This document shows positions 33,392-37,055 of a stretch of DNA of 42,817 nucleotides, in pieces (the stretch's first letter is position 1; the number at the start of each line of letters is the position of its first letter). The translations under genes were made by a program, and so were the position numbers. The DNA is from Candidatus Woesearchaeota archaeon. Lineage in GTDB: Archaea > Nanobdellota > Nanobdellia > Woesearchaeales > DSVV01. Below the pieces are notes generated by a model that was not told the origin of the DNA, made no database searches, and saw only the letters and a program-made list of their open reading frames with translations. The stretch is from contig JACRPI010000024.1 in the NCBI GenBank assembly GCA_016214075.1, forward strand, positions 1 to 42,817. Reading direction: 5' to 3'.

Positions 33392-35104
33392 TTACTCCAT
33401 AAACCTAAGGATTTTTACTTCTCTTGTTTGTAAATTCACTAGTGGAACTCGCGCAGGTTCTGGATTGTGCCCCATTTTTTCCTGAAACGCTGTTTTCCCC
33501 TGCCAACAACTTCCACAAATCAATGTAATATTTCTATAATTTGAAACAGATGTTTTATGCAGATGACCTGTCGCAAAGATATCTGGAATTTTTCCAATCA
33601 CCATAGGATCAGAATCTCTAAAAGGAATATACATACACGACGCGTGGGTCGGCGCAAGATGGCGGCGCTGTAGCAGATATTTCATCACGAGATCCGCCCT
33701 ATCATACCCCCCATTATTCCTAATTTCATCCACATTCGCAATATAATAATCAAAACTGTACCCATGATACATCAGCACAGTAATCCCTGGAAATCCTTCT
33801 GTCTTTCCTACATTAACTAGTGCAGGGTTACTCACCATCACTGCGTTCGGAAGATCATACAATGGTTTTGCCATATCTTCGTACAGCGGAAGCTGCGGCT
33901 CTGCCAAGCGCATTGCATCGTGATTGCCAGGACACATAATTATTTTCATGTGTTTTGGAATTTGCGCAAGCAATGTGCCACATGCTGCATATTGATTATA
34001 AATATTAGTTATCTCTAAATCATTTTCTTGCCCAGGATAAATTCCAACTCCATCAACAATATCTCCTACAATAAAGATATATTTTATCTTATTTACTAAC
34101 GCACGTTGCTTTTCATCACCCATCTCGCCGTTGATCCACTTCAGGAATTTTTCAAACGCCGCAGTAAGAAATTGTTTTGACCCTACATGAATATCAGACA
34201 GAAAAATAGCATACTCTTCTATAGGTGATTTTTTTAACTCATTATAGACAGGAACTTCTGGCCAGATTATTTTTTCGACAAAAATAATTCCTTTTCCTGC
34301 AACTCCTACCACTCCAATCACTTCGTCAAGCACTAATGATTTTCCCCCTTCATAAAGTTCTTTTTTACTCTTTGAAATGAGCGCTTTTATTTCTCCTGTG
34401 CTGTCTTCTAATGCAATAATAATATTCTTATTTTTAGTTTCTTCAATTTTTTTAACAAGACCAATGACTGCTACTGGCTCCCTCTCTTCTTTCTGCAACG
34501 CGCGCTTGACGACAGTGACATTATCTAATTCCTGCCTTCCACGCAACAGCCGCTCAAGTGTTTTGTATCGTTCATTAAAATAAGAGACAAAATCCTGAAT
34601 CTCTTTATTTACTTCCTTTGCGGTAAAGCTTGAAACAATTGTGACTATTCCTTCTTTTGTTTCTTCCTCATTTTTGGCATCCAGGAGTACTTCACTTTTT
34701 TCTTGGTTGAGAGTGGTTGCTTCTACGTCTGCTTCTTTATTTCGAAATTGGGTCGAATACCCCACAGCTTGCTGTGACCCAATTTCGTAATCCCGCGAAC
34801 TCGCCGTATTGCGAGCTGGAAATACCCCGCAGCTTGCTGCGATTGGGGTACCAGCGGGCGGCGAGTTCGTGTTATTTTCTTTTTCTGCGGAAGTAGTTCT
34901 TTGTTCTTTTTGTTTTTCTTGTTGTAAATAAGAGAAGATCATTTTCCTTATATTGTCATCATCTTTATTTTGTATGTCTGCATATAATTTTTCTGTTTTT
35001 TGGTCACTCTGTTCTTTTATCATTGCCATGAGCTTTCCTGTCACAAGAATTTTTTTCGCAAGAAGTAATTGCACAAGCTCTTTTTTTGTCGTCATTTTCT
35101 TCAC
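33392..35104 (-). CDS. polB: DNA polymerase D small subunit DP1 (3'-5' exonuclease)
   Basis: A 570-residue protein. Residues 1-75 form a helical domain, residues about 78-122 a non-conserved linker rich in Ser, Ala and Pro, residues about 200-290 an OB-fold and the rest an Mre11-like phosphoesterase: SDIHVGSKQF near 301, GDIVDG near 343, CPGNHDAMR near 391, YHGYSFDY near 446 and GHLHKTS near 514. All metal ligands seem present, so proofreading activity is expected. The linker coincides with a block of long palindromes at 34743-34869 that keeps the frame. It lies between cdc6 and DP2. Confidence 0.95.
   Translation of the reverse strand: MKKMTTKKELVQLLLAKKILVTGKLMAMIKEQSDQKTEKLYADIQNKDDDNIRKMIFSYLQQEKQKEQRTTSAEKENNTNSPPAGTPIAASCGVFPARNTASSRDYEIGSQQAVGYSTQFRNKEADVEATTLNQEKSEVLLDAKNEEETKEGIVTIVSSFTAKEVNKEIQDFVSYFNERYKTLERLLRGRQELDNVTVVKRALQKEEREPVAVIGLVKKIEETKNKNIIIALEDSTGEIKALISKSKKELYEGGKSLVLDEVIGVVGVAGKGIIFVEKIIWPEVPVYNELKKSPIEEYAIFLSDIHVGSKQFLTAAFEKFLKWINGEMGDEKQRALVNKIKYIFIVGDIVDGVGIYPGQENDLEITNIYNQYAACGTLLAQIPKHMKIIMCPGNHDAMRLAEPQLPLYEDMAKPLYDLPNAVMVSNPALVNVGKTEGFPGITVLMYHGYSFDYYIANVDEIRNNGGYDRADLVMKYLLQRRHLAPTHASCMYIPFRDSDPMVIGKIPDIFATGHLHKTSVSNYRNITLICGSCWQGKTAFQEKMGHNPEPARVPLVNLQTREVKILRFME
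34743..34869. repeat. In-frame palindromic block inside the DP1 gene
   Basis: First unit: CGAAATTGGGTC (34743-34754) pairs perfectly with GACCCAATTTCG (34776-34787) around a 21-base loop that itself holds ACAGC-TT-GCTGT. Second unit: CGAACTCGCCG (34796-34806) pairs with CGGCGAGTTCG (34859-34869), with inner nested pairs GCTGG/CCAGC, TACCCC/GGGGTA and CGCAGC-TT-GCTGCG. The word AATACCCC(A/G)CAGCTTGCTG(T/C)G occurs in both units. The block is markedly more GC-rich than the gene around it and encodes the variable linker. Confidence 0.85.
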
Positions 35105-35119
35105 ACTACACTAAATGCG

Positions 35120-36331
35120 CTACTCCACATTTAAACTCTGCTGAAGTATAGTCATTATTTTTGGCTTAATTGTTTGCGGAATAGCAACAGAAATCTCGCG
35201 CGTTCTTCCAAATCTTCCTTTTGAAACAACTTTCGCGTTTATAATTCCAAGCATATCCAACTCCGCAATAATATCAGAAACTCTTCTTTGCGTTAATGGA
35301 TATAAACCTACTTTCACACACAATGTTTTGTAGACATCATACACATCCCCTGTATAAATAATAGCATTCTTCTCATTATACAAGGAAAAAATCGCATAGA
35401 GTGTGGTCTGCTGCTGCCGCGGCTGCGTTTTGACAATATCAATAACTCTATCTCTTTCAATTTTTTCTTCTGCATTGTCTATGTGCGCTATCTTTACTGT
35501 CTGTTCTCCATTTCTCTCCGCAATTTCTCCCGCAACACGAAGCAACTCAAGAGCTCTTCTCGCATCCCCGTGTTCTCGTGCCGCATACGCTGCACATTTT
35601 TCCAAAACCCCTGATTCAATAATATTTTCTTTAAATGCGTGCGTTGCCCTTCTCCGTAAAATATCTTGAAGCTGAAGCGCATTATATGGCGCAAAAATTA
35701 CTTCTTCCTCACTCAAAGAAGATTTTACCCGTGGATCCAAATGATCTGTAAAAACAAGATCATTAGAAATTCCAATAATACACAGCTGGCTTTTTTTGAG
35801 ATTTGTATTAATTCTCGTTAGGTTATAGATAATTTCATCTCCTACTTTTTTTATTAACTGATCTATTTCATCTAAAATCAACATGATGAGCTGTTCTTTG
35901 TCATCCACTGCACTAAAAAATATTTTATACACTTCATCTGTCGGAAGTCCTGTTGCCGGAATATCTTTATTGAACTCTCTCGCAAGCTGCGCAATAACCC
36001 TATATTCTGTATCCGCAATTCGACTCAACTTACAATTAATATATACTGTCTTTAAAGGAATGTTTCGCTCCTCTGAGAGTCTTCTTATTTCTGCCGCAGT
36101 ATATATCGCAGTGACTGTTTTCCCAGTTCCTGTTTTTCCATAAAGAAAAACATTCGATGGTCGTTCCATGCGCAGCGCGGGAGCAAGAATCTTTGCAAGT
36201 TGATTGATTTCTTCATCCCTATGAAGCAACGCATCTGGTGTATAAGAAGATTGTAATACTTTTTTATCTTTGAAAATAGACACCTGACTTAAAAATTTCT
36301 CAAATATATTGTTTAACCCCTTTTCTTCCAT
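35120..36331 (-). CDS. cdc6: Orc1/Cdc6 origin-binding initiator
   Basis: A 403-residue AAA+ protein from the ATG at 36331. Walker A VFLYGKTGTGKT is near residues 60-71, Walker B LILDEIDQL near 147, then a sensor segment (LCIIGISNDL) and the Arg-containing lid (EHGDARRALELLRVAGEIAE). A C-terminal winged helix (YPLTQRRVSDIIAELDML) binds origin boxes. It is the first gene of the cdc6-DP1-DP2 operon and lies next to an AT-rich region with ORB-like sites, as expected for the initiator of the neighbouring origin. Confidence 0.95.
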   Translation of the reverse strand: MEEKGLNNIFEKFLSQVSIFKDKKVLQSSYTPDALLHRDEEINQLAKILAPALRMERPSNVFLYGKTGTGKTVTAIYTAAEIRRLSEERNIPLKTVYINCKLSRIADTEYRVIAQLAREFNKDIPATGLPTDEVYKIFFSAVDDKEQLIMLILDEIDQLIKKVGDEIIYNLTRINTNLKKSQLCIIGISNDLVFTDHLDPRVKSSLSEEEVIFAPYNALQLQDILRRRATHAFKENIIESGVLEKCAAYAAREHGDARRALELLRVAGEIAERNGEQTVKIAHIDNAEEKIERDRVIDIVKTQPRQQQTTLYAIFSLYNEKNAIIYTGDVYDVYKTLCVKVGLYPLTQRRVSDIIAELDMLGIINAKVVSKGRFGRTREISVAIPQTIKPKIMTILQQSLNVE

Positions 36332-36444
36332 ATAATTCCATAGGAAACCAAGGTTTATATAGTTTTTTAATTCATTTTTTTTACCCCTTTTCCACAACAA
36401 CTTATCGAGGATAACAAGAGCGTGGAAAATAGGTAATGGGCCCT

Positions 36445-36782: not shown

Positions 36783-37016
36783 ATATTTTTATTGTTATTT
36801 ATTATTAATTTTATATTTATTGATTTTATTTTATTATTTATTATATTATTAATTTTATCATCTATTGATTTTATTATTTATTATTCTATTTATTTTATTA
36901 TATTTTTATTGTTATTTATTATTAATTTTATATTTATTGATTTTATTTTATTGTTTATTATATTATTAATTTTATCATCTATTGATTTTATTATTTATTA
37001 TTCTATTATATTATTA
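36783..37016. repeat. 117-bp AT-only tandem repeat, two copies
   Basis: The segment starting ATATTTTTATTGTTATTTAT at 36783 recurs at 36900 with almost no change. The unit is 117 bases and nearly all A/T. It lies in the middle of the presumed origin. Confidence 0.8.
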
Positions 37017-37055
37017 TTATTTTCTATATAGAAATTAATTATATTATTATATTAT

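Follow-up and report, generated by a model that had tools for sequence, protein, structure and literature searches.

An in-frame palindromic insert in the polymerase D small-subunit gene of a woesearchaeon, very likely a mini-element of IS200/IS605 type

How does a GC-rich palindromic sequence come to lie inside an archaeal replication gene without breaking it, and does it become part of the protein? This question is raised by a stretch of 42,817 nucleotides (contig JACRPI010000024.1, assembly GCA_016214075.1; hereafter the window) from a Candidatus Woesearchaeota genome, i.e., from an archaeal phylum for which nearly all knowledge comes from metagenomes. Its minus strand carries, at 33392..35104, the 570-codon gene of DP1, the small, exonuclease subunit of family D DNA polymerase (PolD); the product matches DNA_pol_E_B and Metallophos and has the PDB relatives 6knb and 5ihe, and a search of the genome for a second DP1 found none, leaving this as the sole copy detected. 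An earlier note, made from the sequence alone, had described two cruciform-like units at 34743..34869 that encode the variable linker of DP1, and had proposed them as a new case, in an archaeal replication gene, of protein-coding palindromic elements. Our analysis makes it very likely that both palindromes belong to one non-autonomous IS200/IS605-type mini-element, of the kind described as palindrome-associated transposable elements (PATEs), which inserted after TTATT, was kept in frame and is tolerated. Protein-coding palindromes are already known in Rickettsia, and intragenic repetitive extragenic palindromic (REP) sequences in several bacteria; the elements described here can be connected with IS200/IS605 ends and with TTATT as the target, and one host gene provides an exact empty site. 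Genomes, contigs and loci are designated below by our labels G, C and L.

Architecture of the insert and its repeat family

The insert (34742..34876, plus strand, in the left-to-right orientation of IS200) measures 135 bp, or 45 codons, and its ends are ambiguous by the length of a TTATTT direct repeat with a period of 135 bp. The left repeat (34737..34742, plus strand) holds TTATT, presumably the target of TnpA, immediately beyond the left end, where other copies have the same TTATT; the right one (34872..34877, plus strand) presumably serves as the right cleavage site, brought along by the element itself. Between them, on the plus strand, lie a left-end hairpin (34743..34787), with inner part CACAG-CTTG-CTGTG and perfect 12-bp outer arms CGAAATTGGGTC (34743-34754) and GACCCAATTTCG (34776-34787), and a right-end hairpin (34796..34869) with perfect 11-bp outer arms CGAACTCGCCG (34796-34806) and CGGCGAGTTCG (34859-34869). 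The left core, AATACCCCACAGCTTGCTGTGA (34756..34777), is 91% identical over 22 nt to AATACCCCGCAGCTTGCTGCGA (34821-34842), which falls within the 28-nt right core AAATACCCCGCAGCTTGCTGCGATTGGG (34820..34847; query 82-109). The two cores stand in direct orientation, share the consensus AATACCCC-gCAG-CTTG-CTGc-GATTGGG, and are accompanied by no terminal inverted repeats. Thus, the arms and the shared core were described correctly in the earlier note; its outer limits give way to approximately 34742-34876, as set by the TTATTT repeats and their 135-bp period, and what it took for separate units are better read as the left and right ends of a single mini-element.

The palindromes are not a product of chance. 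As single-stranded DNA, the insert folds with -40.1 kcal/mol, compared with -19.4 +/- 3.1 for shuffled sequences (z -6.7; 0 of 200), and its GC content, which had been noted as deviating, reaches 55.6%, whereas DP1 outside the insert has 37.4% (z 3.1 relative to 135-bp segments of the window). Compared with the other copies, the outer stems have changed on both sides in 6 of 23 pairs (score 0.273 vs 0.168 when shuffled), and stem cells are paired in 93.6% of cases, vs 26-45% when the partners are slid. Since such changes, seen also in the right-end hairpin, are compensatory, the stems have been kept across copies.

The insert belongs to a dispersed repeat family, which became apparent in the search of the genome for the core that had been suggested in the earlier note. 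A 138-bp stretch matches many genomic sites, the best of them (C13:964-1101) at 89% identity over the whole length, and the 1.62-Mb genome contains 25 occurrences of the 10-mer CAGCTTGCTG, part of them chance matches in genes, compared with a single occurrence of the reversed, uncomplemented pattern. Nine intact copies, in addition to fragments, could be delimited, and all nine have TTATT on the left and TTAT on the right; by IS200 logic the right-end TTAT is part of the element, although sequence alone cannot separate it from a target duplication. These observations bear on the view that the insert is an ordinary DP1 linker, palindromic by chance, or an artefact of metagenome assembly. The DP1 linker is indeed naturally variable, but the 89% identical copy elsewhere and the genome-wide family, together with the fold, the GC shift, the TTATTT on both sides and the preserved frame, refute this view in the main, and we regard it as almost certainly wrong.

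Several intergenic copies of the same genome (L016, L017, L018, L025, L027 and L011) contain, at recurring positions within the hairpins, three different palindromic modules; these modules resemble small mobile repeats that target palindromes, such as the SMR-A elements in Haloquadratum. At least two further related subfamilies of this genome, with the sequences TTATTTGTTGGAAATACCCCGTTGC and TTATTACCGAATGGGTTTAC, have the AATACCCC core in common and other outer stems (L034:1308-1343, L035:1297-1331, L029, L036 and L037).

Association with Y1 transposases

A scan of 84,980 species genomes with ATACCCCNCAGCTTGCTGNGA returned at least 119 stretches; the matches listed come mostly from Woesearchaeota, Pacearchaeota, Nanoarchaeota and Aenigmatarchaeota, and also from some bacteria and methanogens. 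Among these listed matches, 13 open frames fit a Y1 transposase profile built within this analysis, most of them at a distance of up to about 50 bp from the core. In L145 and L178 the core is present on both flanks of the Y1 gene, and in the autonomous copies L107 and L131 (...TTATTTC / GTTTATT) the left flank and the right end look similar to those in the DP1 copy. Genome G028, from the same order, contains about two dozen copies of the element and a Y1 gene (L253) that has half a core, at the contig start, on one side and a complete core on the other; the right end reads ...TTTCATT. The 28-nt stretch AAATACCCCGCAGCTTGCTGCGATTGGG occurs unchanged in at least 14 of the G028 copies and in one copy each in G001 and G049; the two-hairpin architecture with TTATT on both sides is found also in G001, G010, G028, G041 and G049. 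Moreover, in a set of 60 relatives Y1_Tnp is present in 14 of 20 genomes with the element and in 11 of 40 without it (Fisher p 0.002, with no phylogenetic correction).

Two sets of loci were considered as the source of the DP1 copy and rejected: the Y1 genes of its own genome, seen as pieces at the end of C21 and the start of C10 that are cut by contig ends, because the sole visible right end is a different hairpin, and the Y1 loci of other relatives, where the core is near the gene in only 1 of 29 (L253). Many copies (L073, L322, L323, L326 and others) lie less than 100 bp from contig ends; hence, metagenome assemblies seem to break at the elements, whose number is probably underestimated.

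The resemblance to transposase-bearing elements suggests transposition by TnpA. The two ends it would recognize are the left and right hairpins with their common core; a Y1 transposase encoded elsewhere would excise the element as single-stranded DNA, which would then be pasted just 3' of a TTATT on the strand opposite to DP1. The element probably carried its own TTATT at the right end, which would be why TTATT now stands on both sides of the site. Since it is 135 bp long and would have entered in a stop-free frame, the DP1 frame was presumably kept and extended by 45 residues; these would fall in the flexible linker between the N-terminal and OB domains of DP1, where the change could be tolerated.

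Reading frame, translation and the host genes

As stated in the earlier note, the insert is in frame and free of stops within the 570-codon open reading frame (ORF). Read on the minus strand, it encodes NTNSPPAGTPIAASCGVFPARNTASSRDYEIGSQQAVGYSTQFRN, which contains the peptides NTASSR and DYEIGSQQAVGYSTQFR; an empty DP1 site would read GAAAATAAAGAAGCA on the gene strand. The linker, of approximately 93 residues, is located between the N-terminal domain and the OB domain, and the insert supplies 45 of them; the palindromes thus encode part of the variable linker and not, as had been supposed, the whole of it. In the alignment of DP1 proteins the insert peptide is absent from 29 relatives, including one same-genus orthologue at 75% identity, so that no linker of this sequence is conserved in distant DP1 proteins lacking the palindromes. 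In these 29 relatives, the N-terminal domain before the insertion point is retained, as are the OB and phosphoesterase domains that follow, with linkers of 8 to 104 residues between. Because the N-terminal domain is conserved ahead of the insert, translation starts upstream of it. The 45 residues are probably translated.

The reading as a protein-coding palindromic element in an archaeal replication gene is supported by the repeat family, by the absence of the insert from DP1 of the relatives and by in-frame copies in other genes; DP1 is not the only gene affected. Five in-frame copies were found in three genomes (two in the genome of the window, two in G041 and one in G139), with lengths of 135, 135, 99, 99 and 111 bp, all multiples of three; strand and reading frame are the same for all five, and, in a comparison of four copies, this frame alone among the six had no stop in any of them. 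The C13 copy lies in frame in a 553-codon ORF; its homologues in G015, G013 and G088 match the flanks of the insert but not the insert itself, and the protein has no Pfam or NCBIfam family. In G041, one copy lies in an acyl-CoA synthetase (860-codon frame), and another, of 99 bp, adds 33 residues, including GIFNLNWELIMPQQAAGYYTQLR, to the beta subunit of succinyl-CoA synthetase. The latter protein lacks exactly these 33 residues in G146, from the same family (...SLSDLK-NKKIKK... vs ...NLKELK + 33 + NKKIPQ... in G041), and the Thermus enzyme is also without them. The 111-bp copy of G139 is in frame in a 366-codon gene whose product has no Pfam family and no PDB relative. In G028, the many near-identical copies have TAG in that frame, and a search of this genome revealed none read through in a long frame; G028 thus serves as a natural control, albeit one genome only.

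These data also bear on the alternative that a splicing-like process removes the insert from the RNA, or that ribosomes pass over it by byp-like hopping, giving a protein without the 45 residues. The insert RNA would be very stable (-62.8 kcal/mol, z -6.3), and ribosomes skip mobile hairpins in some yeast mitochondria. However, neither a sole common open frame nor lengths in multiples of three would be needed if the copies were skipped, and the insertion points look like linkers or loops; we therefore consider skipping highly improbable. Another alternative is that the insert was co-opted as a useful linker under selection, e.g., in PolD regulation. Speculation of this kind exists for REPs located in repair genes of bacteria (PMC3733652), bacterial genes that carry REPs notably include those for replication and repair, and the DP1 gene, the only copy, is kept intact. 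Nevertheless, 12 of the 15 codons that differ between the two in-frame copies of this genome are non-synonymous, which gives no sign of constraint on the peptide; the other host genes are metabolic, and relatives manage without the insert. This explanation is in our view very unlikely. Given these non-synonymous differences, and insertion points that look like linkers or loops, neutral tolerance of the mini-element is the simplest account.

Some points weigh against a tolerated mini-element. In the 98%-complete assembly of this genome, no transposase with a matching core was found; hence, mobility there may now be past. No exact empty DP1 site was found among the relatives, since their linkers range in length from 8 to 104 residues. 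Finally, intact copies in two genomes have a length divisible by three in 4 of 4 in-frame cases vs 1 of 15 others (p 0.0013), a contrast that is partly built in because in-frame copies are recognized by read-through.

Taken more broadly, we find it somewhat probable that Woesearchaeota repeatedly lengthen proteins, among them core enzymes of replication and metabolism, by tolerated in-frame hairpin elements of IS200/IS605 type with an intrinsic open frame. If so, they would represent an archaeal counterpart of the Rickettsia protein-coding palindromes, with a transposase class that is identifiable and testable. The IS200/IS605 ends, the TTATT target and the empty site make it possible to test, in DNA and in protein, whether small mobile hairpins supply proteins with linker or loop segments.

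Some loci stand apart from this count. L167, which is a bacterial SDR, and a number of short ORFs that overlap the core are truncated or spurious frames and were excluded. A further two-hairpin element of this type, at L143:3200-3430 in the metagenome-assembled genome of Pacearchaeota isolate ARS103, is tentatively read through in frame in a PIN-domain gene; its ends, which are uncertain like the exact frame, give 112 bp, not a multiple of three, and the sequence contains Ns. In G006, the homologue of the C13 gene encodes additional residues at the position of the insert, with no palindrome of the element's kind visible, and a 973-codon ORF of the genome studied here (L215, G000:C46:37850-40243) contains at least two diverged copies of the first domain of that gene.

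Relation to known palindromic elements

The closest resemblance is to the PATEs of Haloquadratum walsbyi, non-autonomous relatives of IS605-type transposons, as far as the passages describing them go (PMC3119063). Like these, the DP1 element has no transposase, being with 135 bp too short to encode one; it has a palindrome near each end, the two alike in sequence and without terminal inverted repeats; the palindromes are related to IS200/IS605 ends, the same core occurring at Y1 elements in other genomes; and the presumed target is a short oligonucleotide. Further likenesses are terminal-only, core-deleted copies of approximately 50 bp (L272-L275, in G041) and small repeats nested in palindromes. 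The archaeal phylum and the sequence differ, and some copies here are in frame inside conserved genes, of which the PATE passages describe none.

Rickettsia palindromic elements (RPEs) are described as lying in frame in many unrelated genes (PMC10969869). According to the passages on them in that source, they share with the present elements a size of about 100-150 bp, in-frame location in unrelated genes and a recurrent frame and peptide; the likeness is one of mode of working, with no RPE sequences compared. The host here is archaeal, and autonomous copies allow the mobilizing class to be named; CGTC-type RPEs, by contrast, lack a known dedicated transposase (PMC3733652). REPs and REPINs with their RAYT transposases are likewise hairpins tied to Y1 (HuH) transposases, with intragenic copies, several of them in DNA replication and repair genes, where intragenic bacterial REPs are often located (PMC3733652, PMC3116915). 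However, the hairpin feet here carry TTATT and no GTAG/CGTC tag, and the whole element has left and right ends in the same orientation, in contrast to inverted REP doublets. The enzymes of IS200/IS605 elements recognize subterminal hairpins and a short target beside the left end (PMC6006769); the DP1 element shares the terminal hairpin core and TTATT-like sites with transposase-bearing L107, L131, L145, L178 and L253, and differs in having neither tnpA nor tnpB. We found no report of protein-coding palindromes in archaea in the open-access literature, which is weak evidence, since most subscription papers fall outside this scope.

Elsewhere in the window, an AT-rich repetitive stretch (36792-37031) with a low-complexity ORF of repeated IIDFILLFIILLILSSIDFIIYYS-like units lies close to an Orc1/Cdc6-like gene (35120-36400), and is possibly an origin region.
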